The notes beneath the pieces were generated by a model. It saw only the letters and a program-made list of their open reading frames with translations. It had not been told where the DNA came from and ran no database searches. The translations under genes were made by a program, and so were the position numbers. This document shows, one piece after another, positions 20,296 to 37,539 of a stretch of 64,000 nt of DNA. The DNA is from Cladocopium goreaui (lineage: Eukaryota; Sar; Dinophyceae; Suessiales; Symbiodiniaceae): contig CAMXCT020002024.1 of NCBI GenBank assembly GCA_947184155.2, forward strand, positions 191,938 to 255,937. The letters are read 5' to 3'. The first letter of the stretch is position 1; the number at the start of each line of letters is the position of its first letter.

Positions 20296-20550
20296 CGGAC
20301 AAGTTGTGTGTGTGAGTAAGTCGTGTGTGAACAAGTCGTGTGTGGACAGGTTGTGTGTGGGCAAGTCGTGTGTGGACAAGTTGTGTGTGAGTAAGTTGTG
20401 TGTGAGTAAGTTGTGTGTGGGGAAGTTGTGTGTGAGTAAGTTGTGTGTGTGAGCAAGTGGTGTGTGAGTAGGTCGTGTGTGTGGGCAAGTTGTGTGTGAG
20501 GAAGTTGTGTGTTGACAAGTTGTATGTGAGCAAGTTGTGTGTGTGTGGAC
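20296..20550. repeat. GTGTGTGAGTAAGTT minisatellite; left part of a split array
   Basis: 15-bp units GTGTGTGAGCAAGTT/GTGTGTGGACAAGTT. The same family resumes at 59873-59960 and 62441-62600, so one array seems to have been split by the retroelements between. It abuts the 3' end of LINE A. Confidence 0.85.
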
Positions 20551-20672
20551 AAGCCGGCAGGGAAGCCGGGTGCAGGGGGTCTGACAACACGTCAAAACTG
20601 CAGATACTGTCCAAGCAATAACGAGAGCCATTGCCAAAGTCGCTGGATGTCAAGGCCATTGAACGTGGTAGC

Positions 20673-23600
20673 CTATGTATTGGCAGTCACCCCAGGGTGA
20701 GCATAGAGCACTGTGAGCAGATCCGGATCCGGTTGAGGTCTCGGTTGAGCCATGAGATGCATTTCAAGGCTGTCTGTGCGGCAGAGCCAAAATCCAGTAA
20801 CGCCCTGGCTGAAGTTGTCAGGAAAGACCCAGCAGCGCTCAGGAAGTCTGCAGTCGTCACAAAACATCCACATACTGGGAGCGGCCAAGTCAGACACCTC
20901 TGGATATGTGCGCAACATCGTTTGATAATGGCCGCCGTTGGTGTGACCTAGGTGGGCTGAGACAGCAACAACCGTATACGACATGGAGGTCAGTGTGGTA
21001 TCCGTGGCCAGTACCGGCACCTGAACTTCCCATGCAAAATTTATGACTGCCGCATGCTTGATCAAGCTGCCTGACGGTGTCATAACCATTCGATCCACAT
21101 GAATGACCAGCAGCTCTCTGGGGTCAGTGAGGCCCGCACACATTCCAAGCTCCTGGCTCCAGTGCCTAAGCAGGGCTGTGAGGGAGGTCTCATTGCCGCT
21201 GAGCAGTGATGGGTCCAGTTGCAACGTCAGTGGCATGAATCGGTCTCCATGATCATGCACTTCTGTAACATCAGAAGCAGTCACGCGTCTTTCCCAGCGG
21301 TTGGATAGGATATCCAAAGCAAGCCATCTGGCAAGCCTATTCCCAAACTCTGCACTGTCAGCTTGGCCCTGTTGATCATTCCAGCCATGAAGAAGTGAAT
21401 CAAACCAGTCTTGCGCATCCAAGGAAAAAGGGGAACCATCATTGTCACAAAGAATGGTCTGCAGGGTGGCTGAACGTGCGCCCCAATCATGAAATCGAAA
21501 ACGACATCTGGACAAACTGGCCCATACATAGGCAAGGAATGCACTGTTGGCATAGCACGTTGTCCCTGAATTGTTCAATTGAAGCCCCAGCAAGAGTTCT
21601 CTCAGGCGTTGCCGATCTTGAAACGTCATTGGCGTCGGGTGGATTTCTGATTGTCCTTCCCTTTCCCCCGCGCTTTCCCTTTCTGGGTTGGCAGGCCATT
21701 CAGAGCTTGTTGAAGCAAATGGGCTGGTTTCGAAAGGGCCATGTTGTGCTGTTTGACCGACATCCCTAACAGGGACCACACTGTGTTCTGACACAGGTCC
21801 TGGAGCAGGTACCAGGCATCGGAGTCTCTGTGAGACAGTTGAAGGAGCCAGGGAATCGTAGGTTGATCCGTCCTCAGACTGTGGAACTTCTGGATGTGGC
21901 TGTTCGACTGAAAGAGCTCTTCCAGCGTCTGGAGGTTCCTCAGCATCTGGGCCATGGCCAGGGCTGGACGTAGTGCCCGTTTCAGCTGCTTCAGGTCCGG
22001 GCACCACTTCTGATAGCCCCAGCTCCCGTCCGGAAGGAGAGTTCCCTTCTCCACTGCCAGGTCCCACAGTTGTTCTCCTTGTTTCGAGGCCGCCAGTTGT
22101 TGGACTCGTCGATGAAGCTCGGAGATCACGCCGGCCATCAGGTGGGTCCTCAGATTGGGCCATTTCAGATCGTCCTGATGCTGCGGCGCCTGTTGGCGCC
22201 AGGTCTGTGCCATCACCTTCAGGTGGGGTATGATGCCCTCTGGTCGATCTTGTGCAAACAAAACGAAGCAGTCCTGGCGGAGTTGCAACTGTATTGCCCT
22301 CTCGTGGCTCAGAATGAGCTGGGCCATCAGTCTCAGCATGTCGGTCATTGCGGCTGCCGACGCTGGATCTGCCAGTGCGCCGTCTTGTGAAGCCTTGTGG
22401 CGCTTGGGCTGATGATCGTCGTTTCCATCCAAGTGTTTTCTGGCTCCCAGGAGCAACGGGCCCAGTGCCTGAAGACCATCCATCAGTGCCTGGTCGTTGG
22501 GATCCATCAGGGCGTCCATGGATTGGATGGAGAAGGGCCGCAATCTGCAAAACAACTGGACAGTTCGTAGCAAAATGCTGATGCTGAAGGCGGCAACGGT
22601 CAGGGGTCATGGACTGATCATCAGCAGGCAAATTAAAAACCTGTTGGCATAAGCTGCAACAAAAATCCTGAGTCTGCATACTTTGTAAATAGTGATGCAA
22701 TTGGAAAGCAATCTGAGTGGCCCACACACATGTCTGCGGATGCTGCACCAGGAGATGGTGAAGTAGTACCGCCGTGGCATAATGGCCGCCACATGTCATG
22801 CATCGCGTCCTGAGACCTGCAAGGATATCAGGGTCTTGCCAAAGCTGTGCAAAGTCTCGGCTGAGCAGGGCATGTTTCACCTTGGTGTGCAAGGTTTCAT
22901 GTTGCAGACAGGTCAGAATCTCATCAAGAGCTGTGGGATGAAACTGGGTCGGCACAAACAGTCGCAGGCCTTGACTATGGATCATCATGGCCGTCTGTCG
23001 AAGCAAAGCACACACATGCGTGAGGCCCAGTTCATTGCTCTGGGGGTTGCAAAGGCATCCCTTCCGGGCCATGACAGCCTGCAGCAAAAACCGAAGCCAG
23101 GGTTGGGAACCATTCCACAAATCTCCATGAGATTGCAGTAGATGCGCAACTAAATCTCCAGTGCGGGAGTAGGTCAGGCCACAGAATTGACAAATTGTAG
23201 TCAACTGCAGGCGCATCTGGGCTGTGAGGGCCGGAGGATCAAAATTGCCAGTCTGCAGCCAAGCACCCCAAGCATCAGTGGTGTCAATCGGATGCGGCGT
23301 CGCAGCCGGGTTGAATGACCCACATCTACCTTCCGTGATGTGACGCCTCAAGCCTGAGCGGCTATCAAAAATTGTGCCGCAGTGACGGCATCCGTCACCC
23401 CCCTGATGGGAGTCCCTCGAAGGGCACCAATCATTGACAGTAAGGCCATGAGTGTTGGTCAAATGGCCATACAGTTGGCCTAGGTCCTGGAAGGGTAAGG
23501 CACAGATGTCGCAGGCACAGGCCTCTGTCACCCGATCACCATCAGGACGGGTCTGAATCTGCAGCAGGCCAAGTTGCCGCGTGACCGGACAGCTGTGGAC

Positions 23601-26600
23601 ACGGCTATAAGGCCTTTGGCACAATGTACACGGTGAGGTGCATTGCATGAGTACAGAGATTTGGGCTCCCTTAGCCACACACCCTTGCACATGGTCCGGA
23701 TGGCACTGTCGAAAATGTCCATGCAATTCTTGGAATCGGTTGCACCACAGGCCACAAATGACACAATGGTGAGACAAGTATTCCAACATGGCAGCATTGC
23801 GTGGAAAATTGATCCAGTCAGCATGAAGCAACAGTGTCTGCAATTCTGGCCAGAACACTTGGGTCATGACGTGAAAACTCAGGGAGGCAGCGGCAAATGC
23901 TGCCGTGGGTGTCACGACCGGTGCAGCCGGGTGCACAGTGTCAGCAGTCGGCATTGTCACTGTTGGGTCCATGTCCTGGCAGCAATTACGTTGAACATGA
24001 ATATAAAAGCTATTCCATGTAGTAAAAACCTGAAAACAATTCTTACATTGTGGTGCACCATGATGGGACATGGAAGCAGGTGGAACATGAGATGTACGAT
24101 ACTGTCGGAGGCCATGAGTCGTTGTCAAATGGCGTCTCATGTTTGGCAGTGATGTTGTGGCAAAATCACAATGCGGGCAAAGATGTCTGGCCTGGGTCAG
24201 CACAGGTGCAGCGGCGTCCAGATCAATGGGCACCTCCGTCACGGATGCACGGATGCAAGCAATGAGTTGCAAGGTTCCAGTGATGGATGTCCAATCCACT
24301 CTATGCAAAAAGTCGGTGGGCAAAAGATCAAGAGCACGCCTGCTGAGACGCTGCTGCTGTGATGAGGCCAGGGCCAAGAGCATGTCAAGCGGATGATCAA
24401 GGCCAAATGTTTGAAAAACCTGTTGGTGCGTGTGATGTGTGCAATAAGAATGGTCACCCACTATGATCCTGATCATGCGATATATGGTGGCCTGGAAATC
24501 ATGCAAAATTGGAATCGTGACTTGTGTGGCCAATATTGCATATGTAAGCACCGTGAACACACATTGTCTCCAGAGGGACAGGCGGTGTCGAACGCTGATT
24601 TGCCTATGGCTGAGCCAACTTCGGAGTCGATTGAATGCAATCCAGGCAGTGCGCCTGCGATGATGCCATGACTGGATTTCCTGTGCTGAATAGCTAATGA
24701 CTGCACCAAGGTAGCTTCCTTTGGTTCTCAGAGGCAATGCCGATGGTGATCCATTACGTCTGGGCACCAGCAAGCAGTGGTCAGTGCCTTGCCGACGGAT
24801 GCGTCCTTTCAAAGTTGGACGTGGGTTGGTACCAGCATATTTCAACAGCACAAAAGACTTTTGATAGGATAACTGGAGTTCAAGTTGTTCCAAAATATCC
24901 AAAACAAGTCCAAGATTATGCAGGTGAGTGATGAATTCCTGTGGTGAAGTAAAACTGCAACCCACATGCACATCGTCCGCGTAAATTGTTATGCAATCGT
25001 GAATCCACTGTTGTCCAGTGTGCGAAGCCAACAGCCGTAGAAACCGGTCCATATACACCACCCACAATTGAGGAGCAATTTTGCATCCTTGTCGCAAGCC
25101 CTTGCCAACTGTTACTGAAGAAGTGCCATGTTGAAAAGAGATGTTGTATCTTGTATTTTCATGCCAACTTGCAACCAACTGAACCAGATCAGGGGGGGTT
25201 CCTAGTTCCAAGAGATGATCCATTAAAAGACGACGATTAGCACAATCGAAGGCCCTGGACATGTCAAGAAAGAGGGAAAGTCCTCCACACATGATAAGCT
25301 TTGGCACCTGTGTCATCTGCTGGGTGACTGACCGACGCTGGGTTCCTACCAGAGCTCGGATGGCTCTGCTGTGGCCAGCTACACGCTGAATTGCATCGAT
25401 GGCACCACGCTTAGGCATGAACCCAAAATGTGGAAAACACGTGAGAATGGGCACTAGGGATTGTTGAACCAGGGATGCAATCAAACCTAACACCAGTTTG
25501 CCCATGGGCTCCATCAGGGATATTGGCCTCATCTGAGATGGGTGTGTGTTGGGCTTACCCGGTTTAGGGATGAAGTACAACCAAGAGTCTTTCCAGGATT
25601 GGGGTATCATTGGGGGACTTTGGCTCCACCAACTTTGAAGACTTTGATACAAGACAGTGGCCACGTCATATGGAGCACTTTTCCAAATGATTGCCGGTAA
25701 GAACGGTGGAGCAACCGACTTGTTGGCATGCAGCCGTGTGAGTGCCTTGAACAGCGCATCAAAGGAAAAAGGTACCCCCGGTGCACGATCAGAATATGTC
25801 GGCAGTTGGGATGGGCCTGCCCAGAACTGCTGGACAAAAGCAACTGTCATGGAATGGGCAAGGTACTGGTCAGCTATGCGTCCATCTGGACCTTTAAGTC
25901 TGGCTCTGGCTTGTGGTCGCTTCGGAGTGAATTTGTTGATGATGTGAAACATGGCATGGGAATCATGAAACCTGGCCGCACGGTCAACTTCTTGGCACAA
26001 GGATTGGAACCTAAGTAGACGTGCCTGTCTGGCCTGCTTCTGTTGACGACGTTGGAGATACCCATACCGACTGCAGTGATGCCAGGCCTGCATGACATTA
26101 CGTAAAAAATTACGTCCAAAAGGAAAAACAATAGCCTTAAGTGCTCTGCGATGAAACCATTTGTCCCGTGTTGTCAAGTGAAACTCCGAATAATCTGGCT
26201 GTTGAAAACGAATGGGATGATTGGGAAAAAGGGAGTGAAAAACAGGGGAAAGTTGGTTGTGGAGCCCAACAATGAATTCTTCAGGGGACGCCTCTGTGTG
26301 TGCGGATGTCACTGTCGCAATAACCTGTTGTCGTAGGCGATGCCACGCCTCCTTCTCCTCCAAACTGGCAATGCGGCATTGATTTCTCTGTGCATATGTG
26401 CAACCAGTTGGTCGATTGGCATGATGATACATCCTATGATGTTTGCGAATCGTACTGATCATGGGGATGTGATGGGACTGATTGCAAGGGACAAAATCCG
26501 CATCGTCCAAGTACTGAATGTGTTTTGCCGCCCCATCACAGGTAACAATACGGGTGAGGACATGATCAATTCTATTACCAAAAGTACCATGCACAAAAGT

Positions 26601-27674
26601 GGCTCCTGAGCGTCCCCATGTATTCACAGCTGTCAGGCCATGAGCACGGAGCAGGTCTTGGAACCTCTGTTGATCCTTGTGGGTGGATCCAGTGACACTC
26701 TGTGTCTTCCAGAAAAATTTCGTAGTTCCAACCCACGGCGGGTGGGCCTGGAGATCGCAGTTGAAATCCCCTGCACACAGAAGATTGTGCCGTACTGGTA
26801 TATTGCTAAGACATTGATCAAATGCCGTCCAGACTGACTCTCGTTGTCGATAGGAGCTATCAGTGCGATAGTCCGTGTACTGATACATGGCAATAAGATC
26901 AAGGGCCGTCTGATGTCCATGAACCCGTACGTGCAGTATCCTGCCAGGTACCACACAATCGTAACCAATCTGAGAAGAATGGGCAAAGCGTCGAGAGAGC
27001 ATCACCAAAAGGCCGCCACTGCGTTTCACTCCTGTGGCAGAGTGCAGATAGGTCCAGTCCTGATCTGTCCAGAAAGATTCGAAGCCCCAACGCGTCTCCG
27101 CAACCATCACTATGTCCACTGGATGAAGTCGTAGCCAGTGCTTCAGCTCGTGGAATGAAGCTTGAGACATACCACCAGAGTTCCATGAGAGACAGGTCAG
27201 TCTCTTGGAATTGGTACGTACTGGTATGGATCTGTGTGGCTGGACGCTCGGCTCATTGGATCTTAACTTACTAATCAGGGTTTCCGGAAAGTCTCTCAAA
27301 TGCAGTCGCTGTCCATGATAGTCAGCTGTCCCAAAACGAATGGCCCTACGGCATGCCCTTTTGAAACTGCGTTTATGCACATTGGTAGCTGGCGATGGGA
27401 AGCACTGAGTGTGACCACTCACTGGTGGCGGGTTTCCACTATTCGCAGTTGCATTATGAAAAATGGACTGCCATGTGTCTGCTTCAGTCGTGGTAGTGGT
27501 CCCACGACAACCCTCACCCTCACAGCTGTATGGATGGGATCCCAAAAATTGCCGCAAATCTGTTTGTCGCATCAAATAGTCCAGCAAGCAAGGATCAGCT
27601 GTGCCCGGATTTGGGACCGGGTTACACCCACTGTAATGGTAAATTATCAAGAGCCCCAAGAAGACAAAGATCAT
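20673..27674 (-). CDS. LINE A polyprotein: endonuclease-RT-zinc fingers-ubiquitin protease
   Basis: One uninterrupted frame (open from 27764; first ATG at 27674, so the start is uncertain). Domains in order: an EEP/APE endonuclease (about 27203-26455) with CLSWNSGG, the AETRW glutamate, AGDFN, FGNRIDHV and a terminal SHHIP; a reverse transcriptase with motif A LFLDMSRAFD (Asp at about 25265), GLRQGCKIAP and YADD (24983-24972); about eight C2H2-like fingers (for example CPHCDFATTSLPNMRRH); a low-complexity linker; then a ubiquitin-specific protease with NNSGTTCYANSAF (Cys at 21557), QADSAEF, NGGHY (His at 20930) and MFCDD. EEP and RT fit target-primed reverse transcription. The USP is predicted to cleave ubiquitin from substrates; which ones is unknown. 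No RNase H domain was seen. Confident as to family; the protease role is inferred. Confidence 0.88.
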   Translation of the reverse strand: MIFVFLGLLIIYHYSGCNPVPNPGTADPCLLDYLMRQTDLRQFLGSHPYSCEGEGCRGTTTTTEADTWQSIFHNATANSGNPPPVSGHTQCFPSPATNVHKRSFKRACRRAIRFGTADYHGQRLHLRDFPETLISKLRSNEPSVQPHRSIPVRTNSKRLTCLSWNSGGMSQASFHELKHWLRLHPVDIVMVAETRWGFESFWTDQDWTYLHSATGVKRSGGLLVMLSRRFAHSSQIGYDCVVPGRILHVRVHGHQTALDLIAMYQYTDYRTDSSYRQRESVWTAFDQCLSNIPVRHNLLCAGDFNCDLQAHPPWVGTTKFFWKTQSVTGSTHKDQQRFQDLLRAHGLTAVNTWGRSGATFVHGTFGNRIDHVLTRIVTCDGAAKHIQYLDDADFVPCNQSHHIPMISTIRKHHRMYHHANRPTGCTYAQRNQCRIASLEEKEAWHRLRQQVIATVTSAHTEASPEEFIVGLHNQLSPVFHSLFPNHPIRFQQPDYSEFHLTTRDKWFHRRALKAIVFPFGRNFLRNVMQAWHHCSRYGYLQRRQQKQARQARLLRFQSLCQEVDRAARFHDSHAMFHIINKFTPKRPQARARLKGPDGRIADQYLAHSMTVAFVQQFWAGPSQLPTYSDRAPGVPFSFDALFKALTRLHANKSVAPPFLPAIIWKSAPYDVATVLYQSLQSWWSQSPPMIPQSWKDSWLYFIPKPGKPNTHPSQMRPISLMEPMGKLVLGLIASLVQQSLVPILTCFPHFGFMPKRGAIDAIQRVAGHSRAIRALVGTQRRSVTQQMTQVPKLIMCGGLSLFLDMSRAFDCANRRLLMDHLLELGTPPDLVQLVASWHENTRYNISFQHGTSSVTVGKGLRQGCKIAPQLWVVYMDRFLRLLASHTGQQWIHDCITIYADDVHVGCSFTSPQEFITHLHNLGLVLDILEQLELQLSYQKSFVLLKYAGTNPRPTLKGRIRRQGTDHCLLVPRRNGSPSALPLRTKGSYLGAVISYSAQEIQSWHHRRRTAWIAFNRLRSWLSHRQISVRHRLSLWRQCVFTVLTYAILATQVTIPILHDFQATIYRMIRIIVGDHSYCTHHTHQQVFQTFGLDHPLDMLLALASSQQQRLSRRALDLLPTDFLHRVDWTSITGTLQLIACIRASVTEVPIDLDAAAPVLTQARHLCPHCDFATTSLPNMRRHLTTTHGLRQYRTSHVPPASMSHHGAPQCKNCFQVFTTWNSFYIHVQRNCCQDMDPTVTMPTADTVHPAAPVVTPTAAFAAASLSFHVMTQVFWPELQTLLLHADWINFPRNAAMLEYLSHHCVICGLWCNRFQELHGHFRQCHPDHVQGCVAKGAQISVLMQCTSPCTLCQRPYSRVHSCPVTRQLGLLQIQTRPDGDRVTEACACDICALPFQDLGQLYGHLTNTHGLTVNDWCPSRDSHQGGDGCRHCGTIFDSRSGLRRHITEGRCGSFNPAATPHPIDTTDAWGAWLQTGNFDPPALTAQMRLQLTTICQFCGLTYSRTGDLVAHLLQSHGDLWNGSQPWLRFLLQAVMARKGCLCNPQSNELGLTHVCALLRQTAMMIHSQGLRLFVPTQFHPTALDEILTCLQHETLHTKVKHALLSRDFAQLWQDPDILAGLRTRCMTCGGHYATAVLLHHLLVQHPQTCVWATQIAFQLHHYLQSMQTQDFCCSLCQQVFNLPADDQSMTPDRCRLQHQHFATNCPVVLQIAALLHPIHGRPDGSQRPGTDGWSSGTGPVAPGSQKTLGWKRRSSAQAPQGFTRRRTGRSSVGSRNDRHAETDGPAHSEPREGNTVATPPGLLRFVCTRSTRGHHTPPEGDGTDLAPTGAAASGRSEMAQSEDPPDGRRDLRASSTSPTTGGLETRRTTVGPGSGEGNSPSGRELGLSEVVPGPEAAETGTTSSPGHGPDAEEPPDAGRALSVEQPHPEVPQSEDGSTYDSLAPSTVSQRLRCLVPAPGPVSEHSVVPVRDVGQTAQHGPFETSPFASTSSEWPANPERESAGEREGQSEIHPTPMTFQDRQRLRELLLGLQLNNSGTTCYANSAFLAYVWASLSRCRFRFHDWGARSATLQTILCDNDGSPFSLDAQDWFDSLLHGWNDQQGQADSAEFGNRLARWLALDILSNRWERRVTASDVTEVHDHGDRFMPLTLQLDPSLLSGNETSLTALLRHWSQELGMCAGLTDPRELLVIHVDRMVMTPSGSLIKHAAVINFAWEVQVPVLATDTTLTSMSYTVVAVSAHLGHTNGGHYQTMLRTYPEVSDLAAPSMWMFCDDCRLPERCWVFPDNFSQGVTGFWLCRTDSLEMHLMAQPRPQPDPDLLTVLYAHPGVTANT
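21626..22519 (-). CDS. Overlapping +1-frame ORF, LINE A (conserved unknown protein)
   Basis: A 297-residue frame lies inside the linker region of the LINE A polyprotein, one nucleotide downstream of its frame. It starts at an ATG with good context (CCATGGAC). Homologues sit at the same place and in the same relative frame in LINE B (29594-30514) and LINE C (38683-39583). Shared features are a lysine/arginine patch near residue 40 (QPKRHK), a conserved block FVLFAQDRPEG, an LRTHL helix, a WGYQKW block, VWSLLGMS near the C-terminus and a lysine/glycine-rich tail (KGKARGKGK). The main frame here is low-complexity and poorly conserved, so selection seems to act on this frame. No family is recognised; the basic tail suggests nucleic-acid binding. 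It could be made by internal initiation or a frameshift. Confidence 0.7.
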   Translation of the reverse strand: MDALMDPNDQALMDGLQALGPLLLGARKHLDGNDDHQPKRHKASQDGALADPASAAAMTDMLRLMAQLILSHERAIQLQLRQDCFVLFAQDRPEGIIPHLKVMAQTWRQQAPQHQDDLKWPNLRTHLMAGVISELHRRVQQLAASKQGEQLWDLAVEKGTLLPDGSWGYQKWCPDLKQLKRALRPALAMAQMLRNLQTLEELFQSNSHIQKFHSLRTDQPTIPWLLQLSHRDSDAWYLLQDLCQNTVWSLLGMSVKQHNMALSKPAHLLQQALNGLPTQKGKARGKGKDNQKSTRRQ

Positions 27675-27850
27675 AATCTTGTATCCAAAATCGTCAATGC
27701 TGTTGTAAAGGGCACACTTTGTCCAGCAGTACAGAGCAGCAGGCAGGAAAATGGCAAGAGTCACCGGAGGATGTCACAGGCGAGGGGCTAAATGGCTGCC
27801 GAAAACCTGGAACTCCTCGTTCCTTGGGGCACCTCCTTGGGTGCAAAGGG

Positions 27851-28306
27851 CGTGCGTGCGTGTGTGCGTGTGTGCGTGTGTGCGCGTGTGCGCGTGTGCG
27901 CGTGTGCGCGTGTGCGCGTGTGCGCGTGTGCGCGTGTGCGCGTGTGCGCGCGTGTGCGCGTGTGCGCGTGTGCGCGTGTGCGCGTGTGCGCGTGCGCGCG
28001 TGTGCGCGTGTGCGCGTGTGCGCGTGTGCGCGTGCGCGTGCGCGTGCGCGCGGTGCGCGCGTGCCGCGTGTCGCGTTGCGCGCGTGCGCGCGTGCGCGTG
28101 TGCGCGCTGGCGCGCGTGCGCGTGTGCGCGCGTGCGCGCTGTGCGCGCGTGCGCGCGTGCGCGCCGCGTGTGCGCGTGTGCGCGTGTGCGCGTGTGCGCG
28201 TGTGCGCGCGGGCGCGTGTGCGCGGGCGCGTGTGTGGGCGTGTGTGTGGGCGTGTGTGTGGGCGTGTGTGTGGGCGTGTGTGTGGGCGTGTGTGTGTGTG
28301 TGTGTG
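27851..28306. repeat. TG/CG microsatellite between LINE A and LINE B
   Basis: About 450 bp of (TGTGCGCG)n, then (GTGTGTGGGC)n and a plain (TG)n run. It separates the 5' end of LINE A from the 3' end of LINE B. Open frames on both strands (Ala/Cys/Val or His/Thr/Arg) are artefacts. Confidence 0.95.
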
Positions 28307-28355
28307 TTTTCCACACACGCCTATTTTGCAACTGCATAGGTCTGTGCAAGACCAC

Positions 28356-28372
28356 GTTGTCCATTTGGCAAC
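28356..28372 (-). other. Conserved 3'-UTR hairpin, LINE B
   Basis: GTTG.CC-ATTT-GG.CAAC (one bulged base) immediately beside the conserved AACGGTTCC block. LINE C has a 7-bp version at the same place (37523-37539). It is probably the 3' RNA structure read by the reverse transcriptase. Confidence 0.55.
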
Positions 28373-28454
28373 GGTTCCGTTCAGGAAACTTTCGGCCTTA
28401 CCAATGAAACCAGGAGAAGTGAAAAGAGTTGGAAAATTGTTCTGGAGTCCTTCA

Positions 28455-31400
28455 TCACCTCTGGCGCTCAGCCATGGTGGTAGCCTGGAGCAGGGCCATG
28501 ATAGCCGCTGTCGTCGCGTCCGTCTCTGGTGCAATCGCTGTGCTTGGCTTCTCTGTTGATTCCGTGGTATCAGTGTCAACAGTGGTGCTTGGCATCCCAA
28601 TGTCTCGTTCTGGTACATTTGTGCTTGTATCTGCATCTGCGGCAATGGTCAGATCCGGTTCATCAGGTGCTGCAATGTCTGTCTGCGGCAATGGGCGATA
28701 CACATGCAACTGGACGCAGTCTGCCCTGGCCAACCAGAAAACAGTGGAATTGCGCCGAAACCAGTCTGGAACAAGCCATATCGGTTGGGCTGCTGTGGAG
28801 TCGTTTGTCAGCAACCAATGCATTGGCTGTCCATTCTGCTGGACTGCCGGTCTGGTTTTCAGCACTGCCTGATAATGACCTCCCTTCACATTGCCAAGGT
28901 GTGCAGTGGCAGAAAGCAATACATAGCTGACAAATTCCCTTCTTTGGGAGTGATCAGTGAATACCGGAACATCACACCCAGCTTCCATATCAATAAGGCA
29001 CTGGCTCTTCAAAATGGTGTCCTCGGCATCATAGAAGCGATCCAAGTGAAGGCATATGCATTGAGGCGCCTGCATCAAGGCAGCAATCATTCCATCAACT
29101 TGCATCCACAAGCGCATGAGATGTGTCAACGTGTAAAGTGTGTCAGGCAGGTGCACATGAGTGGCAGGAAATGAAAGTGTAATGGGCATGAAGGCATCAC
29201 CACGGTCATGTGCATGAATACATCCCATTTCTTCCACTCGGCGCTCCCAGGTCATGTTGATCGCTGGTGCACACAGCCACGACAACACAGCAGTCGCAAA
29301 TTCCGAAGCATCCTGCTGTCTACCCCGGTGATTACCATGAAAGGCACCCCAATTCTGCAGAAGCTGATTGAACCATCCAAGATCTTTCAACGCAACTGAT
29401 TGCAAATTGTGACAAGGCAAACATTGAATCACTTCTGCAAAATTTGACCCCAATGAGCTTGCTTCACATTGCATCGACATCATACACCAAAGCAGGCTGA
29501 AAATGGTGCTATTGGCAAAGCACCAGTTGCTGTCATTGTGAAAACGTAAATGGCTCAGAACATGTAGCAGCATAGCCAATGGAGGTCGCATGTCTACGTC
29601 TGTGGACTGGCTGGGGGTCGAAGTCTGCCTTTGCCCTTCCCATGCTTCGGCTGATGTCCCATGGTGTGTTGGATCGTGTCCGCCAGGCCGCATTGATTCA
29701 GAGCATGTGGTTTGAGCATTGTCCCCAGGAGGGTCCACACGCTGCTGCGGGAGAGCCTGTTCAGAAGCTCCCGCTCCTGATCCGCTCTGGGACAAAGCTG
29801 CAGCCTCCATGGGCAGATCGGAGCATCCTGACTGGTCTGCAAGGACCGAAAGCAGAGCACCAGGTCCGAGTTCTTGAACATCTCCACAAGCTGTTGTGCA
29901 TGTCTGGTCATCAGCGTCATGCTGATTGGAGTCTTGGAGCTGACCACCAATTGTTTGGCTTTGGGATCCCATTCCAGGAACGGCCAATTCCCTTCTCCGT
30001 CGATCAGTTGACTCTGCACTGAAGCAATGTGGAGTGGGTCCTCTGGTTTGGCTTCTGCGATCTTCATCACCTTCACCAAGAGATCTTGGAACAAGCACTG
30101 GGTCAGGTGTTGTCTCAGCGTCATCATCGGTATTGTTGATGACTTGCGCTGCTCCTGCCAGGTCTGCGTTGCCTGAATCAGCCCCTGCAAGCCGCTCTTT
30201 GGGTCTCGGTTGAAAAAAAGAACGAAGCTGTCTGCTCGACGGCTCTGGTTGAGTTCTCGATCGTGACGAAGAACCAGGAGCGCCAGTTGCTGAACCAGGG
30301 CGTTCAGCTGCTGTAGCTGAGGTGTCTGGGCCACCTGCATTGTCGGCTGGGCTGCATTGCCGGCTTTGTCGTGATGGCGTTTGCTGCGTTTTGGCTCTCT
30401 TGGGTTTGGGGGCAATTGCGCTGTGCCAAGCAGCGGTGCCAGTCCCTTGAAGGTTTCCAGGACTTGCTGCTGGGCCAGTAAGTCCGTATTGGTCATCAAG
30501 GAGTCGTCCGTCATGGAGCAAGCCCGTTAAAAACAATGCCACTTGCAGCAAATTGGGGCAGTTGTGCAGCAAGTGAGACTGAGCCAAATGCTTGCGTGCT
30601 GGATCTGGTGCGGCATCTGAATCAGCCGGCAAATTGAAAATCTGCAGGCATGCATAGCACTGATGATCAAGCAGCTGTTGCTCCATCATCAATGATGTCA
30701 GCAGTGTCATGTAGAAAGTCATGGCAAGTTGATTGCATGGATGCACCTCCCGCAAGTGCTGTGGCATTGCGCTGGGTGCACATTCACATCCGCAAAGCAA
30801 ACATTGGGTGCGCATGGTGGTCAAGCATTGCTGGTCCTGCCAGAGGCGCTCATACTGATGCTGAGTGGCGATCTGTTCAAACATCAATCTGGTGTGGCGG
30901 TCCAAGGCAGTGGACAAAATCAGGTTCAAGGCATATTCACTGGCCTGAAAGGGAGCAAATAACTTGTTGTCCATCTTGTGAAAAATCATTGCAAGCTGCC
31001 TGAGTGGCAAACATGTGTGATCAAGCCGATTCTGATGTTGAGATGGGTTGCATACACATTGGCCAGAGGCATAAAACAGCCGAACCAAAAGCAGTGTCAG
31101 TTGTTGAGAACAGCGCCAAAGTCTGGCGTGGCTTCCCTGGAGATGGCATGAAAGGTCGGTGGCACGTGCATAATGCACCCCACAGAGTTGGCAATGCAGC
31201 GTCAAGGCCATACGAGACTGAGCATTGCCTAACACAATCTTCATTTGGCCCTCAACACAGGCCTGCACCCAGTCTGGTCGGGTTGGCAAGGACTCGGCTG
31301 TTGCGTCCGGCCGGAATTGCAAACATCTGCCCTGGTTTATGTGTGAACGAAGACTGGACAAGTTGTCGTATAAAATGCCGCAATGGGCACACGCTGGGCT

Positions 31401-34400
31401 GCCTGCCACACTGTCCCTGGCCACATTGAACGCCATGCCCTGGAGTGCATGCTCACTTTGTAGGTGCTCAGTAAGACTGGCTAAGGTCTCAAAGCTTGCA
31501 AGGCAAACTTCACAACGCAATCCAGGGTTAGTGGCCTCAGGCTGCGATTCATCAGGGGGCGCAGCAACTCCAAAAAGGAGGAGGACCGTGACCTGAACCC
31601 ATACCGGGCAAAGATGAGACTTGAACAGCGCCCCACAAAAAGGACAGGGCCTTTCTGTGGCCCACGTGTTGGACATGTACACTGCACGTTGAGGAACACC
31701 TTCCCAATATTGGCCATGCATGGTACGATAGTGGGCATTCAGTTCTTGCACACGGTTGTAGTGCAGTCCACAAAGAATACATCTTTTGGCCATGTAATGA
31801 CATGCTTCTGGCAAGGTTTCCAGTCTGTTCCAATCCCTGGTCTCCAGGATCTGGCAGAGTGCAGGTCCAAAAGGGGCGCGTCTCAAATTTCCAAGTTCTG
31901 ATTCAGGCAACATGTTTGGGCTTCGGACAGCTAGTTCACCGGCAGCCAAGGCCGTTCCAGTCATGTAAGCTTTGGCTCCGAGGGCTGTGTAGGGCTCCAC
32001 TGCACAGGGTCCGGAGAACAAGACCTGACAGCCCCGCTCAATGTGTGTTTGAAAACTGCGCCATGTTGAAAAGGATTTTCCACAAAAAGTACATTCAGGC
32101 AACCCATTGGTGGTAAAATGTGATGCCGTGGCAAAATGTCTTTTGGGAACCCTTTGTCCATGGATCATCGTGCAGTGTCGTCGGAATGAGGCAACGTCAG
32201 TGGCAAGAAAGTCACAAAGGTAACATTGATATATCTCACCATCATTAGGCCCGGCACGCAACTCAGTAGGCTCAACAGGCGGTGGACTCAGTTCCTGAGT
32301 TTGTTCCAGCTTGGCAACCAGCTCAGACAAATGTCCCCAGGGTAGTTGCAAGGCGATATCATCATCCTGCAGTGTGGTCATGCGTTGAGTGGTGGACTGC
32401 AAAAGTTGCTTGGCAGCAGCTCGCAATTGCTGCAGTGGCGTGGGAATACCGTGCTGTGCTAAGGCAGAATGATTAGTTCGACCTGTACGAAAGGCATGGT
32501 CACACGTCACTTGGCGCAGCATTTTGTACATTTCTTTTTGCAAACACATGATACCATGGGTGGAAATGCCTGTGGAAAAAAGTTCATATGTTAAAACTGG
32601 CATGACTGTGGATTTCCAAAGCTGAAATCTGGAGCTGATTTTGAAGACATGCTTTCCCCTGAGCCATCTTCCAAGTCTGCGTTGTGCTATACGTGCAAGA
32701 CTCATGCGGTGCTTCAAGGTGGCAGCCTGACAATCCTTGTATGTCATGACAGTTCCAAGATATTTGACTTGGGTTTGAATTGGAATCAAGATCTCTTCAC
32801 CAGTGGGGAGGGGAATGCGCAGCTGTTCACAGTCACTTTTGGCAGTCACAAAGCGTGCTCTCTGGTGTCGATGAGAGGTGCCCGCTACTGCTAAGAGTGC
32901 AGCAGACTTCTTAGCATTCAGTTTGAGGGAAAACTCACGCAAGGTGTCCAGTAAAATGCCAAAAGCTTGTAACAGAAACTCCAAATCAGCATAGGAGTAA
33001 AACAATCCACCAACCTGGTAATCGTCGGCGTAAATGTTGAGATGATGTCGCAACCATGCAATGGGGAGATGATCAGACACTCGATGCAAATACAGGACTA
33101 TCAAAAAGTTCCATAGGCCTGGAGCGGCCTTACATCCTTGCCTCAGGCCGGCGCCTGTTGGAAGTGCAATCATGTCATGGCCATGCTGGAAGTGGTATTG
33201 GGTGTCGATATGCCAATGTGTCAGTAGCTGAATGACCGAGGGTCGGATATTCAGGTGATGTAGCTGGCTAAACAATTTGGCACGTGAGACCCCATCAAAA
33301 GCCCGTTCTAGGTCCAACATGATAGTCACTCCACCGCAAAAACGGTACATGGGAAGTGCAGCTGCCCTGGCATGTGGGGTAGGTTTTTGGGAGGCTACTA
33401 ATTTTTGGACCTGACTACAATGAAATGCAACCCTGCAAACTGCATCCAGCGTTGATCTCTTGGGGAGATAGGCCCAAATGGGCCAGGGCAGCAGCAGGGG
33501 TTGGGCATCTACATTGGCGGCATGAATTAGCAGACCCACAAGGGCCTTACCTACCGGATCTTGCAGCGCAATCGGCCGCAAATTATACGGCGAAGTGGCA
33601 GGCTTGTGCGGTTTCCCCAGCATGATCATCCATCCATCACGCCAGCACTGCGGTATGTATGGAGGGGTAACACTCCACCATTTACACAAAATGTGGTACA
33701 AGATGGGGGCAATGATATGGCTCTGAGGACGCCAGGCAATGCCAGGAGCAAATGGCATGCCTACCGCACGGTGCAATGGAATGCCTCTCAGAGCAGCTGC
33801 AAGGTCGGAGGCCGTAAACGGAACTCCAGGCGCCTGAGTGAAATCAACCGGGATATTGCTGGGTCCTCCCCAAATATCAGCAACAAAATCCTTAAGGATT
33901 AGCAGCTCTTCTTGGGGGCTGGCAATGGCACCAGCTTGATTCCTGATTTGGATCCTGCGGCGAACTGACTTGGGTGAGTAGCGATTGATCAGGCTAAACA
34001 TACGGTGCATGTCATGGCGACTAGCAGCAGCTTGGGCCTGTTGAACTATATCACAAAAATGAGAACGCCTGATCTGAGCAGCAAACCTGCGATGTTGCCT
34101 TCTGAGGCTGGCATAGCGGGCAAGGTGATGCCATGCTCTGAAAACTCCAGAACCTGTGCAAGACCTGATTTGTTGGAGTTTAGCACGATGTTGCCATTTG
34201 GTGAGAACTTGTGTAGTGGAATGTCTCCAGGGTTCATGTCTCTGGGGAGCACTCATGGGGGGAAAATGCTCATGGAAACAGGCATTCACGGCAGCATGAA
34301 ATGTGTCCAAGCTAGTGTCCTGGGGCAGATCTGAGGTCCATACCTGATGCAAGGCTTGCGTCATGACGGCCGAAGAGTGCTCGACATATGTGTCCCATTG

Positions 34401-35576
34401 AGACGTATTGGATTGGTATGCTGCATGTGCTTGAAGACTCTGTTGCTTACTGATATTTCCCTGTTTTAATGGGCGCGTGGGGGCCCAGAACAGCGCGATC
34501 TGATGGACAATGGGAACATGTCCTTGCTGGGTGGTTCCCATGAATGGTGCCTGCCACAGGTATCGCGGCTGTTTGGCAATGCCATCAACCTGGGATTTAC
34601 GAGCACAGCCAAAGTCTATTCTGCTTGAGTGTTGCCCATGCACATACGTCGGCCCATCTCTGGAGTTCCACGAGTTCAAAACCACCAAGCCATGAAATCT
34701 CAAAATGGAAATCAGACGACCAGCATCTTGATGTTGAGAACCTCGAACCAGCAAACCCCGCCACCAATACTGGTCACTGCCAGAGTGAGAGGGGCAAGGC
34801 GGCACATTGGTGTTGAAGTCAGCCATCAACATGAGCATATTACGATGAGGGAGACCCTGGAGTGTGCGATCCAAACAGCCCCACCAGTGCTCACGACGTT
34901 GCATACATTGGGGTCCTCTTTTGTCCACATGTTGATATCCGCAGACTATATCTATGGATCTGTTCTGCAATGGCACTCTCAGATGAAGGAGGCGTCCTAC
35001 AATGGCTTCAGTCCAACGCAAGGCATGGGGTTGGCAAAGCTTGCGTGAAATTAGAGTGAGAATACCCATTCCACGGTCTTCCAAACTACCTGAATGCACA
35101 TGTATCCATTGTGAATCAAGCCACTCTCCCGTATACTGCCACCTGGTCTCTAGCAGCGTCACTATGTGAACTTGGTGCTGAGAAAGCCAAATCTTGATCT
35201 CGTCCAATCGATGTGTGGATAATCCACCAACATTCCACTGCAAACATGTGAGACGGGATTTGGAGCCATGAATTTGATGGCACTGGTTCAAGGCTTTCGG
35301 TGGCAAATCTGGGGGAGGCTCTGGTGTTACATGAGAGTCAGAGAAGGAAGGCATAAAATGGAAGTCATCAGGTCTGTACAGTCGGCCGCGATACCATGCA
35401 ATGCCTTGCAGGCATGCTCTCTTGTACGCTCTTTTCAAACTTCTTTTCTTGACATCGGTAAGGTTGGTGCTCTTGGGTGCAGAGCATGCTGGTGGTCCAA
35501 TGTCATGTTGCTTCACGCCAAACATATGTTGAATATTCTGCAAAAAGGAGGTGTCTGGCGTTTCAGTGGATCCCAT
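28455..35576 (-). CDS. LINE B polyprotein: endonuclease-RT-zinc fingers-ubiquitin protease
   Basis: About 2,370 residues in one frame. The frame is open to 36071, but the ATG at 35576 (TCAGTCATGGGA) is shared with LINE C and is my preferred start. EEP endonuclease (about 35258-34499): CLQWNVGG, LLETRW, MADFN, HSSRIDF, with GHVP in place of the usual SDH-type end. RT: TIMLDLERAFDG, GLRQGCKAAPG, YADD (33032-33021). About eight C2H2-like fingers follow (for example CYLCDFLATDVASFRRH). The linker is Ser/Pro/Gln-rich and overlaps a second gene. USP at the C-terminus: DSNWCFANSTIF (Cys at 29522), QQDASEF, KGGHY (His at 28877) and LLTNDS. QQDASEF is an almost canonical USP block. After the USP, a tail ends in TTAAIMALLQ, similar to the LINE C tail. 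The upstream reading is hydrophobic and may be untranslated. Confidence 0.88.
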   Translation of the reverse strand: MGSTETPDTSFLQNIQHMFGVKQHDIGPPACSAPKSTNLTDVKKRSLKRAYKRACLQGIAWYRGRLYRPDDFHFMPSFSDSHVTPEPPPDLPPKALNQCHQIHGSKSRLTCLQWNVGGLSTHRLDEIKIWLSQHQVHIVTLLETRWQYTGEWLDSQWIHVHSGSLEDRGMGILTLISRKLCQPHALRWTEAIVGRLLHLRVPLQNRSIDIVCGYQHVDKRGPQCMQRREHWWGCLDRTLQGLPHRNMLMLMADFNTNVPPCPSHSGSDQYWWRGLLVRGSQHQDAGRLISILRFHGLVVLNSWNSRDGPTYVHGQHSSRIDFGCARKSQVDGIAKQPRYLWQAPFMGTTQQGHVPIVHQIALFWAPTRPLKQGNISKQQSLQAHAAYQSNTSQWDTYVEHSSAVMTQALHQVWTSDLPQDTSLDTFHAAVNACFHEHFPPMSAPQRHEPWRHSTTQVLTKWQHRAKLQQIRSCTGSGVFRAWHHLARYASLRRQHRRFAAQIRRSHFCDIVQQAQAAASRHDMHRMFSLINRYSPKSVRRRIQIRNQAGAIASPQEELLILKDFVADIWGGPSNIPVDFTQAPGVPFTASDLAAALRGIPLHRAVGMPFAPGIAWRPQSHIIAPILYHILCKWWSVTPPYIPQCWRDGWMIMLGKPHKPATSPYNLRPIALQDPVGKALVGLLIHAANVDAQPLLLPWPIWAYLPKRSTLDAVCRVAFHCSQVQKLVASQKPTPHARAAALPMYRFCGGVTIMLDLERAFDGVSRAKLFSQLHHLNIRPSVIQLLTHWHIDTQYHFQHGHDMIALPTGAGLRQGCKAAPGLWNFLIVLYLHRVSDHLPIAWLRHHLNIYADDYQVGGLFYSYADLEFLLQAFGILLDTLREFSLKLNAKKSAALLAVAGTSHRHQRARFVTAKSDCEQLRIPLPTGEEILIPIQTQVKYLGTVMTYKDCQAATLKHRMSLARIAQRRLGRWLRGKHVFKISSRFQLWKSTVMPVLTYELFSTGISTHGIMCLQKEMYKMLRQVTCDHAFRTGRTNHSALAQHGIPTPLQQLRAAAKQLLQSTTQRMTTLQDDDIALQLPWGHLSELVAKLEQTQELSPPPVEPTELRAGPNDGEIYQCYLCDFLATDVASFRRHCTMIHGQRVPKRHFATASHFTTNGLPECTFCGKSFSTWRSFQTHIERGCQVLFSGPCAVEPYTALGAKAYMTGTALAAGELAVRSPNMLPESELGNLRRAPFGPALCQILETRDWNRLETLPEACHYMAKRCILCGLHYNRVQELNAHYRTMHGQYWEGVPQRAVYMSNTWATERPCPFCGALFKSHLCPVWVQVTVLLLFGVAAPPDESQPEATNPGLRCEVCLASFETLASLTEHLQSEHALQGMAFNVARDSVAGSPACAHCGILYDNLSSLRSHINQGRCLQFRPDATAESLPTRPDWVQACVEGQMKIVLGNAQSRMALTLHCQLCGVHYARATDLSCHLQGSHARLWRCSQQLTLLLVRLFYASGQCVCNPSQHQNRLDHTCLPLRQLAMIFHKMDNKLFAPFQASEYALNLILSTALDRHTRLMFEQIATQHQYERLWQDQQCLTTMRTQCLLCGCECAPSAMPQHLREVHPCNQLAMTFYMTLLTSLMMEQQLLDHQCYACLQIFNLPADSDAAPDPARKHLAQSHLLHNCPNLLQVALFLTGLLHDGRLLDDQYGLTGPAASPGNLQGTGTAAWHSAIAPKPKRAKTQQTPSRQSRQCSPADNAGGPDTSATAAERPGSATGAPGSSSRSRTQPEPSSRQLRSFFQPRPKERLAGADSGNADLAGAAQVINNTDDDAETTPDPVLVPRSLGEGDEDRRSQTRGPTPHCFSAESTDRRRRELAVPGMGSQSQTIGGQLQDSNQHDADDQTCTTACGDVQELGPGALLSVLADQSGCSDLPMEAAALSQSGSGAGASEQALPQQRVDPPGDNAQTTCSESMRPGGHDPTHHGTSAEAWEGQRQTSTPSQSTDVDMRPPLAMLLHVLSHLRFHNDSNWCFANSTIFSLLWCMMSMQCEASSLGSNFAEVIQCLPCHNLQSVALKDLGWFNQLLQNWGAFHGNHRGRQQDASEFATAVLSWLCAPAINMTWERRVEEMGCIHAHDRGDAFMPITLSFPATHVHLPDTLYTLTHLMRLWMQVDGMIAALMQAPQCICLHLDRFYDAEDTILKSQCLIDMEAGCDVPVFTDHSQRREFVSYVLLSATAHLGNVKGGHYQAVLKTRPAVQQNGQPMHWLLTNDSTAAQPIWLVPDWFRRNSTVFWLARADCVQLHVYRPLPQTDIAAPDEPDLTIAADADTSTNVPERDIGMPSTTVDTDTTESTEKPSTAIAPETDATTAAIMALLQATTMAERQR
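29594..30514 (-). CDS. Overlapping +1-frame ORF, LINE B (conserved unknown protein)
   Basis: A 306-residue frame beginning at an ATG (30514) at the same place relative to the last zinc finger as in LINEs A and C, and in the same +1 register to the polyprotein. Conserved blocks: PKRSKRHHDK, FVLFFNRDPKS, TQTWQEQ, LRQHLTQCLFQDLL, WPFLEWD, PWRLQL, SVWTLLGTMLKPH, and a basic tail HGKGKGR. Conservation in this frame is clearly better than in the main frame over the same bases. No known family was recognised. It may be an accessory nucleic-acid-binding or coat-like protein of the LINE, comparable in role to an ORF1p, but that is inference. Confidence 0.7.
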   Translation of the reverse strand: MTDDSLMTNTDLLAQQQVLETFKGLAPLLGTAQLPPNPREPKRSKRHHDKAGNAAQPTMQVAQTPQLQQLNALVQQLALLVLRHDRELNQSRRADSFVLFFNRDPKSGLQGLIQATQTWQEQRKSSTIPMMTLRQHLTQCLFQDLLVKVMKIAEAKPEDPLHIASVQSQLIDGEGNWPFLEWDPKAKQLVVSSKTPISMTLMTRHAQQLVEMFKNSDLVLCFRSLQTSQDAPICPWRLQLCPRADQERELLNRLSRSSVWTLLGTMLKPHALNQCGLADTIQHTMGHQPKHGKGKGRLRPPASPQT

Positions 35577-35850
35577 GACTGATCCACTACCCTCACCCCC
35601 GTTCCCAGTGATCAAAACCATGCAGAGTAAGGTCAGGCTGAACCTAAGGTGAAAAGGCAGGTTTGAGCACCAAGAACGCCCGGACTTGGGACCGGGTTGG
35701 CAGTCTCGTTGTTGAAACAATTCAGGCACACAGGTGGAAATGTTCCTTTTTTCCGCAATGACGACTTTCCAAAGGCAATCAAAAATGTTTCCAAAATCCC
35801 AAAATGGCAGAATGAATGTCCAGAAAAAATGCCAAAATACGCGCTCAAAC

Positions 35851-37311
35851 TCAAGGGCAGCGTTGGCCAGCAGGAGTTGAAAATTGTAAAATGCACCACA
35901 AATCAAACACAATAGCAGTATCCAAATCCAATCCAGCACTGATTGACGCTTTGGCAACAATGGCAGGATAGTGAAATCGCCACTCAATCCTGAAAGAAGA
36001 GGGTACAAAGGCAGAATCAGCGTGGACAACACCAAGGTGATCTGACGCTGTCCAGTCTGCGTAGCAACCACAATGGCCTGTGCTATGTTGTACTACCTGT
36101 AATGGAGCCCCACCGCAGAAGGCCAGGAACAAATCGGTGTTACTTGTCCACAAGATCAGATTGTTGCCTGCTGTTGCACTGAAAATATCTGCACCAAATT
36201 GAAATTGCCCGCAATTGTTGCAGCAAGAAATGAAAACCCCACCGCAGAAGGCAGAAAAATCGGTGCATCCTGCTGCACACAAATGATTGAGATGTCTCGG
36301 CCAGGGAACCCCACCGCAGAAGGTCAGTGTCAAATCGGTGTTATCTGTATTATGCAAATCAAAAATGGTCTGAAAGGCCTGCAAAATCTGTACCCAGAAA
36401 ACCCCACCGCAGAAGGTCAGATGTGGTCCGGTGTATCCGAAACAGGGTGGGAGCTCGTCCAGGAAAACTTGATCTGCAAAATGATTGCACACTGTAAGTT
36501 GGGCCCCACCGCAGAAGGCAGCTAAATTCTCGGTGTGTTTCCTCAATTTGGATGTCAAGAGATGTGGGCCTGCAGCAAAATCAAATGAACCTGAAATGTA
36601 AGCCCCACCGCAGAAGGCAAAAGAAAATACGGTGTCTCCCTGAGGCCAAAATGTTGTGCTTTGCAAATGATTGTAATTGTGAACCCCACCGCAGAAGGTC
36701 AGATATGGTTCGGTGTCTCCAAAGCAGGGTGGTAGCTCGTCCAGAAAAATTTGATTAGCCAAATGGTCGTGCACCGTGTATTGGGCCCCACCGCAGAAGG
36801 CAGCTAAATGCTCGGTGTGCTTCCTCAATCGATATACCAAAGGTGGTGATCCTGGAGCAAGATCAAATGAGCCTGAGGTGCAAGCCCCACCGCAGAAGGC
36901 AAAGGAATGTACGGTGTCACCCTGAGACCAAAATGCTGAACTTTGCAAATAGTTTTGATTGTAAGCCCCACCGCAGAAGGTCAGAAAACAACCGGTGTGA
37001 TCACTGAGGAGTTGAGTGTCAAATGTATTGAAAATTGTCGCAATTGCCCCACCGCAGAAGGCTATGGTTTGGCCGGTGTCCAATGCAAGAATGGGAAAAA
37101 GGAAATAGTCTCTGTTGATTGCCTGTTGTCCAACCCAGAAGGGAGCCCCACCGCAGAAGGCCAGATGGTGAACGGTGTTGTCAGTCTGGAAATTATCAAA
37201 TTGCAAAATCAAAGGCAAGTCCTTGACAACCTGAACTCGATGTAGATGAAATGTGTCAGCGGGTTGGAGTTCTGTAAATGATGGTTCTCCACTGTATCCC
37301 AGGATGAGCAA
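35851..37311 (-). CDS. LINE B 5' ORF with 12 FCGG motifs
   Basis: A 486-residue frame upstream of the main polyprotein and in another frame, overlapping the region before its preferred start. It holds twelve copies of a motif [TA]FCGG[AV], encoded by CCCCACCGCAGAAGG on the plus strand at 36108, 36237, 36309, 36402, 36504, 36603, 36684, 36786, 36885, 36966, 37047 and 37146. All intervals (129, 72, 93, 102, 99, 81, 102, 99, 81, 81, 99) are multiples of three, which argues for translation in this strand and frame. LINE C has the related [ST]HC[GR][IV]GS array, fused in frame to its endonuclease. Function unknown; evenly spaced Cys-Gly motifs might bind metal or RNA. The frame difference from the polyprotein may reflect a frameshift in B. 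Confidence 0.55.
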   Translation of the reverse strand: MLILGYSGEPSFTELQPADTFHLHRVQVVKDLPLILQFDNFQTDNTVHHLAFCGGAPFWVGQQAINRDYFLFPILALDTGQTIAFCGGAIATIFNTFDTQLLSDHTGCFLTFCGGAYNQNYLQSSAFWSQGDTVHSFAFCGGACTSGSFDLAPGSPPLVYRLRKHTEHLAAFCGGAQYTVHDHLANQIFLDELPPCFGDTEPYLTFCGGVHNYNHLQSTTFWPQGDTVFSFAFCGGAYISGSFDFAAGPHLLTSKLRKHTENLAAFCGGAQLTVCNHFADQVFLDELPPCFGYTGPHLTFCGGVFWVQILQAFQTIFDLHNTDNTDLTLTFCGGVPWPRHLNHLCAAGCTDFSAFCGGVFISCCNNCGQFQFGADIFSATAGNNLILWTSNTDLFLAFCGGAPLQVVQHSTGHCGCYADWTASDHLGVVHADSAFVPSSFRIEWRFHYPAIVAKASISAGLDLDTAIVFDLWCILQFSTPAGQRCP

Positions 37312-37459
37312 AATGTGAAAAAATATTCTAGTCGTCGTTGCGCAGCAAGGATGGGGCGCCGCCGTCGTATGGCAGGTCGCGCCGGGCAGTCAGATCAATG
37401 GGCACGGGAGTCTGCTGTTGATCCACTTGAGTGCAGTGCTCGTGACTGCAAAGGGGCTT

Positions 37460-37477
37460 GTGTGTGTGTGTTTTTTT
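37460..37477. repeat. Short TG tract and T-run at the LINE C/LINE B junction
   Basis: TGTGTGTGTG followed by TTTTTTT on the plus strand. In the sense of the elements this is LINE C's 3' A-run and CA tail joined directly to the 5' end of LINE B. Confidence 0.8.
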
Positions 37478-37522
37478 GGCTGCACACCTTTTCCAAAGCT
37501 CTCAAGGTCTGTGCCGACCAGC

Positions 37523-37539
37523 GTTGCAAGATTTGCAAC
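37523..37539 (-). other. Conserved 3'-UTR hairpin, LINE C
   Basis: Perfect 7-bp stem GTTGCAA-GAT-TTGCAAC. Flanking bases match LINE B's 3' UTR. The stem is kept although loop and stem bases differ. Confidence 0.6.

Follow-up and report, generated by a model that had tools for sequence, protein, structure and literature searches.

Among dinoflagellates, long interspersed elements (LINEs) with a captured DNA methyltransferase are known from Symbiodinium as SymbioLINE-Dnmt, in which the methyltransferase lies in an open reading frame (ORF) upstream of the reverse transcriptase (RT) and is under purifying selection with a Ka/Ks below 0.2 (main text of PMC5890265). Cysteine proteases of the ubiquitin or SUMO type occur in mobile elements as the OTU and Ulp1 domains of Ginger1, Mutator and Helitron, all DNA transposons and none of them a LINE, and the nearest printed case that we found to the one described here is a Trichomonas protein with transposase_11 and peptidase C19 domains, again a DNA transposon, which is named in one sentence (text of PMC2836005). 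Here we analyse 64,000 nt of the Cladocopium goreaui genome (assembly GCA_947184155.2, contig CAMXCT020002024.1, positions 191,938 to 255,937; hereafter the window), in which an APE-type LINE, LINE A, ends in a ubiquitin-specific protease (USP) domain of the same peptidase family C19. LINE A resembles SymbioLINE-Dnmt in being a dinoflagellate LINE with a host-type enzyme under purifying selection, but its enzyme forms the C-terminal end of the polyprotein that contains the RT; the SymbioLINE-Dnmt layout is absent from LINE A, where about 110 nt precede the ORF and Pfam gives no methyltransferase match. A preliminary description of this DNA, made from the letters alone, had rightly named OTU and Ulp1 proteases in other transposons and knew of no USP-type LINE; we found none among the papers listed by searches of the open PMC literature, and an earlier description elsewhere, for instance in Repbase, a preprint or a subscription journal, is possible. 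The main texts of the SymbioLINE-Dnmt paper, of a study of the accessory domains of retrotransposon polyproteins (PMC6338049) and of a dinoflagellate genomics review (PMC11453091) contain no word beginning with ubiquitin.

The preliminary description had read positions 20673-21620 as a USP with a Cys box, a QADSAEF box, an NGGHY His box and an MFCDD Asp block. This segment is the end of a minus-strand ORF of 2363 codons (20673-27764), and all of these motifs are there, arranged as in a USP active site (Asn2065, Cys2070, the QADSAEF box, His2279 and Asp2303), the roles of the Cys, Q-D-EF, His and Asp/Asn boxes being those known for the C19 family. The two checks to which that description had entrusted its assignment, a C19 profile and a predicted structure, both bore it out. 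The Pfam UCH model (PF00443, cut-off 23.9 bits) scored 25.7 bits against the entire polyprotein and 32.3 bits against its last 318 residues, and the AlphaFold2 (AF2) model, with a predicted local distance difference test (pLDDT) of 87.8, was recognised as a USP by Foldseek and VIA, Cys, His and Asp of the predicted site following one another in the expected sequence order. A profile built from 29 sequences matched 24 distinct PDB sequences at E ≤ 0.001, every one of which bears the name ubiquitin carboxyl-terminal hydrolase. The nearest solved USPs (USP30, USP35, USP12, USP46 and USP2) share with the LINE A domain the fold, the Cys, Q-D-EF, His and Asp/Asn boxes and the oxyanion Asn, at only 13-21% identity, and cellular USPs differ from it in that the LINE domain is fused onto a LINE polyprotein. 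Among the 50 structural matches listed one chain (6qw6_U) is titled tri-snRNP and others are titled SAGA; these are probably the USP subunits USP39 and Ubp8. The prokaryote-built models of NCBIfam gave no match for the USP domains of LINE A or of its two sister elements in the window.

These sisters, LINE B and LINE C, carry the same C-terminal USP, so the observation is wider than the single element first described. The three USPs are 29-36% identical in pairs and all retain Cys, His and Asp or Asn. For a broader count we took 61 matches, dropped ten that were partial and kept 51 domains, 48 from database proteins and three from LINE A, B and C, that each cover more than 80% of the model: Cys is conserved in 50 of the 51 (the remaining one lacks the column), His in all 51 and the oxyanion Asn in 48, and the third catalytic position holds Asp in 46, Glu in two, Asn in one (LINE B) and Pro in one, the column being absent in one. 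We infer that the LINE USP is an active enzyme.

LINE A, B and C stand in a head-to-tail row with a common domain layout (Table 1). The ends of LINE A are fixed because its match to a twin copy, L025 (97.1% identity across 7339 alignment columns), begins and stops at 20547 and 27882. The program-called start of its polyprotein is a GTG, with the first ATG at about 27674, and the short 5′ leader leaves no space for an upstream ORF1. APE endonuclease and RT are found within one protein in LINE A and LINE B (PF03372 and PF00078), and APE and RT motifs also occur in the ORFs of LINE C; by these motifs all three are APE-type LINEs, for which target-primed reverse transcription is assumed. Among solved structures in the PDB, the RT matches LINE-1 ORF2p and R2. 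The C2H2-type zinc-finger patterns were counted by pattern, and the Pfam finger models score under their cut-offs. With other APE-type LINEs the family shares the endonuclease, an RT with YADD and C2H2 patterns, and it differs from them by adding the USP and a second gene, X, nested in the +1 frame, and, in LINE A, by lacking room for ORF1. The coding region of LINE C is split across four ORFs, with a frameshift near 39038 that falls inside the X overlap.

Table 1. Coordinates of the three LINEs and their features (positions in the window).
Feature	Position	Strand	Evidence or remark
LINE A, full element	20547..27882	minus	97.1%-identical second copy L025 starts and stops here; AC-rich repeats at both ends
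LINE A, polyprotein ORF (APE, RT, zinc fingers, linker, USP)	20673..27764	minus	2363 codons
LINE A, APE-type endonuclease	26550..27191	minus	Exo_endo_phos PF03372 39.2 bits; motifs ETR, GDFN, NRID
LINE A, reverse transcriptase	24843..25571	minus	RVT_1 PF00078 68.8 bits; GLRQGC, YADD
LINE A, seven C2H2-type zinc-finger patterns	22740..24179	minus	pattern count; between RT and USP
LINE A, nested ORF X	21626..22519	minus	297 aa, +1 frame; basic GK-rich tail; TGA overlaps ATG 21629 of USP frame
LINE A, USP (peptidase C19) domain	20751..21605	minus	Pfam UCH 32.3 bits; AF2 pLDDT 87.8; Foldseek, VIA
LINE A, Asn2065 codon (predicted oxyanion residue)	21570..21572	minus	motif position
LINE A, Cys2070 codon (predicted nucleophile)	21555..21557	minus	motif position
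LINE A, His2279 codon (predicted catalytic)	20928..20930	minus	motif position (GGHY)
LINE A, Asp2303 codon (predicted third catalytic residue)	20856..20858	minus	motif position (FCDD)
LINE B, full element	28307..37459	minus	ends read between AC-rich repeats; 5′ end aligned with LINE C
LINE B, polyprotein ORF	28455..36071	minus	2538 aa
LINE B, nested ORF X	29594..30514	minus	306 aa, +1 frame
LINE B, USP domain	28698..29570	minus	Pfam UCH 47.2 bits; third residue Asn (LTND)
LINE C, full element	37471..46440	minus	between AC-rich repeats; coding region 37688-46347 split across four ORFs
LINE C, USP domain	37763..38644	minus	Pfam UCH 33.6 bits; within ORF 37688-39583

Searches of the own genome covered 1.17 Gb in 6202 contigs. 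The LINE A USP gave at least 125 matches, including LINE A, B and C (125 of 337 candidates scored); the matched stretch is free of internal stops in 117 of the 125 matches listed, and the closest of the other copies shows 99% identity. The LINE A RT gave at least 87 matches (87 of 798 candidates scored). Among the matches listed, 79 of these 87 are followed 1.2-4.5 kb downstream by a match to the USP, to X or to both, and eight by neither; one of the eight (C1001, locus L018) does carry a USP. RT and USP share one frame in 51 of 69 genomic pairs, a sample unselected for frames, and a single ORF spans both in LINE A, LINE B and all 20 fetched loci (L005-L024), which had been picked for long polyprotein frames and of which L006 has an RT fragment. 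The family is therefore multicopy, with defined ends and recent copies. Together with the profile, the model and the relatives described below, these copies uphold the original reading of a USP-type domain in frame with an APE-type RT and zinc fingers: the feature is the C-terminal USP of a diverse, recently copied APE-type LINE family.

Database searches returned 26 relatives of the USP domain, 53 of the polyprotein and eight of the LINE C ORF including itself. In precomputed Pfam annotation RVT_1 and UCH occur together in 14 of the 53 polyprotein relatives, and the family profile finds a USP in 32, among them all 25 relatives that reach at least 1000 residues past the RT (P0039 partially). 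The 21 relatives without a USP stop at most 835 residues past the RT, ahead of where the USP of LINE A begins; the insect LINEs among the polyprotein relatives (P0078 and P0079) have no USP. Named sources of USP-bearing relatives are Cladocopium goreaui (P0035, P0054, P0061 and P0062) and Symbiodinium sp. CCMP2592 (P0077), and the EukProt records among the polyprotein relatives include one named Skav.

Median pairwise identity among 14 long copies is 46.1% in the RT, 40.7% in the APE domain, 36.8% in the zinc fingers, 36.3% in the USP and 20.3% in the linker. Quick maximum-likelihood trees of RT and USP, built from 28 rows with both domains and with long-branch warnings on the most distant rows, have 15 of 25 splits in common, and in 2000 label shuffles the trees shared a mean of 0.23 splits and a maximum of three, so that the USP has accompanied the RT from a time before the split of these lineages. 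Judged by these trees, the two domains are co-inherited. Between LINE A and its twin, nonsynonymous divergence (dN) is 0.003 and synonymous divergence (dS) 0.070 in the USP (two against 13 changes; dN/dS 0.04), and the corresponding values in the RT are 0.006 and 0.105; the USP of LINE B gives a dN/dS of 0.09 with both L006 and L007. The remaining USP pairs are near saturation (dS 1.7-1.9, ratios 0.09 to 0.54) and were not relied upon. The low ratios show purifying selection on the predicted enzyme.

Two origins of the domain were considered and rejected. A prokaryotic or viral source found no confirmed relative among 77 pattern stretches from IMG/VR or 71 from the GTDB genome collection. Recent capture of a USP gene from the own genome was set aside since the best PF00443 matches there, L001-L004, which occupy open frames of 604-679 codons with several such frames to a contig, bear little resemblance to the LINE USPs: the LINE profile scored 9.5 and 14.5 bits per piece on L002-L004, and 27.9 bits on L001 only with filters off. 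In L001, the sole cellular USP gene read, Cys, His and Asp fall into the same alignment columns as in the LINE USP, but L001 carries CxxC pairs that the LINE USPs lack. As a compact USP without these pairs, the LINE domain would be useful for enzymology.

The linker ahead of the USP is coded in two frames. In the +1 frame, X, a gene that the preliminary description had not mentioned, is present with 283-314 aa in all 22 copies compared (LINE A, LINE B and the 20 loci chosen for long frames), its stop lies 41-101 nt ahead of the Cys codon in every one, and twin L025 likewise has X; the X proteins of LINE A and LINE B are 29.5% identical (E 4.5e-30). Among the USP matches listed, 90 of 125 have an X match just upstream (80 in the +1 frame, six in the USP frame and four in the third frame) and 35 have none. 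Codon differences between LINE A and LINE B fall on the first, second and third X codon positions in 151, 138 and 190 of 291 codons, and dN exceeds dS in the polyprotein frame of the linker in 13 of 14 pairs and also in the LINE A/L025 pair; because differences are commonest at X third positions and the polyprotein frame shows this excess, X is the constrained frame. In the polyprotein frame, the 260 residues ahead of the USP contain only 13-19% order-promoting residues in 16 of 16 rows. When synonymous codons were shuffled with the X residues fixed, that frame was stop-free in one of 5000 trials for LINE A and none of 5000 for LINE B, and it is kept open over the linker. The reverse shuffle, a weak test, left X open in 337 and 1010 of 5000 trials (mean 15.9% over the 22 copies). 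X has a net charge of +7 to +12 and, in 21 of 22 copies (the exception is L014), a GK-rich C-terminal tail; the X proteins of LINE A and LINE B have no Pfam match above cut-off and the structure model is weak (pLDDT 54.9). In our reading, X may be an RNA-binding substitute for ORF1p, made from an internal or leader-spliced mRNA. As a conserved nested gene within a cellular mobile element, X is of interest in its own right.

Two arrangements of X and USP were tried and dropped. The USP frame of LINE A, B and C has an ATG that overlaps the X stop or comes shortly after it, but stop-start coupling fails as a general rule since this ATG is absent in some of the 22 copies. The LINE C ORF and P0081, P0083 and P0086 suggested that X and USP form a single fused enzyme; this was rejected as the usual layout because LINE C has its frameshift there, the fusions exit X at differing points and in all 22 copies X terminates ahead of the USP. 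Cladocopium gene models P0035, P0054 and P0062 also run X into the USP; these may be spliced predictions, and real splicing is possible. In LINE C, by ORF coordinates, an ATGA stop-start overlap (41231-41234, minus strand) joins the RT ORF and the zinc-finger ORF.

Our preferred explanation, which as a whole we would put at about an even chance, is that the USP is an active C19 enzyme of the LINE family that deubiquitinates the LINE protein and its ribonucleoprotein (RNP) in cis. The linker, of roughly 300-380 residues, would tether the USP to the polyprotein; the tethered enzyme would clear the LINE protein and RNP of ubiquitin, possibly along with adjacent host factors, and its action would protect the RT from proteasomal routing by host E3 ligases until target-primed reverse transcription is complete. 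More tentatively, and with rather less than an even chance in our estimate, the lineage may have made the USP a core, co-inherited part as a counter-defence against ubiquitin-dependent destruction of the RT, paired with the dual-coded X (basic, RNA-binding-like, a stand-in for ORF1p) in the +1 frame of the tethering linker. To our knowledge, ubiquitin as a brake on retrotransposition is known so far from human and mouse L1; where the retrotransposon itself encodes a deubiquitinase-type domain, as in this lineage, a single active-site mutation would make it testable whether this brake is general. The best precedent is human L1, whose ORF2p is ubiquitinated by TRIM41 and degraded (text of PMC10716122), a modification that a tethered USP would reverse; mouse L1 is restricted by TEX19.1 (text of PMC5570191). 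Of the two putative functions that the preliminary description had offered, RNP protection and chromatin remodelling, RNP protection is the better supported.

Several observations weigh against an active domain that works in cis throughout the family. The third catalytic residue is Glu in two, Pro in one and absent in one of the 51 domains, and in 18 of the 69 genomic RT-USP pairs the two domains lie in different frames, a state expected of decayed copies. The USP may be absent from some related LINEs, because four relatives (P0063, P0070, P0071 and P0074) end 567-835 residues past the RT without one and the USP of some distant relatives begins just 352-722 residues past the RT. The ATG that overlaps the X stop in LINE A could release the USP separately, which would weaken a strictly cis model, and sequence alone cannot separate ubiquitin from a ubiquitin-like modifier as substrate.

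Of the alternatives, the one that survives best, and that we nevertheless consider unlikely, is an active deubiquitinase that acts where the element inserts, on host proteins such as PCNA or FANCD2 or on the ubiquitin of chromatin, and lets integration finish, with the zinc fingers targeting DNA. The USP does sit behind seven C2H2 patterns on a protein acting at target DNA, and transposon OTU and Ulp1 domains have been proposed to act on DNA-repair pathways (Ginger paper, text of PMC2836005); however, no repair-type USP subfamily is singled out, because the closest folds spread over many USPs, and a chromatin role is less natural given scarce histones (text of PMC6723414). It is quite improbable that the enzyme targets a ubiquitin-like modifier, or works in trans on cellular defence signalling and not on its own LINE protein: USP folds accept other modifiers, as in the USP18-ISG15 and USP36-Fubi complexes that the structure search matched, but no modifier-specific feature was identified and the fixed tether to the RT favours local action. 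We give little credence to a captured domain without catalysis, serving as a ubiquitin binder or passenger. The three domains with Glu or Pro at the third position and the one lacking it would fit such a role, whereas near-invariant catalytic residues despite deep divergence, the dN/dS values of 0.04 and 0.09 and a median identity close to that of the zinc-finger part all speak for a working enzyme. Fainter still is the case for a protease that matures the LINE polyprotein by cleavage, in the manner of viral proteases: a USP that ends a 2363-residue polyprotein after a long linker resembles the layout of a processing enzyme, but USPs cleave after the ubiquitin C-terminus, and no ubiquitin-like family is among the Pfam matches of the LINE A and LINE B polyproteins. 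An artefact (motifs arisen by chance, an assembly error or a cellular USP gene adjoining a LINE), for which we found no point in favour, has negligible probability in view of the single RT-USP ORF in LINE A, LINE B and 20 of 20 loci, the 97% twin with identical ends, the 51 of 69 pairs in frame in an unselected sample and the relatives in other data sets.

AC-rich repeats lie at the LINE ends in the window (20307-20543, 27850-28309, 37456-37475 and 46447-46634). A run of (AC)4 or longer occurs within 330 nt of the stop in 15 of 22 copies, which suggests a preference for (AC)n targets, target-site duplications being indistinct within repeat flanks; strict (AC)n specificity is ruled out because seven of the 22 copies have no such run there, leaving a tendency only. 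In the 5′ region of LINE B, TTCTGCGGTGGGG is present in twelve exact copies (36108-37158, minus strand) spaced 72-129 nt, where 0.07 would be expected by chance with one mismatch permitted. By eye, HCGIGS- and HCRVGS-like motifs are repeated in the 5′ part of the first ORF of LINE C (43294-46347, minus strand), perhaps another 5′ repeat array. An Rfam search of the window gave no match. Beyond the three LINEs, Pfam gave nothing at E ≤ 0.1 for ORFs 48108-50540 and 50509-52041, and the ORF that follows them (52054-54804, plus strand) scores 14 bits with RVT_1, below the cut-off, and shows GIY-YIG-like and Penelope-like motifs by eye only.
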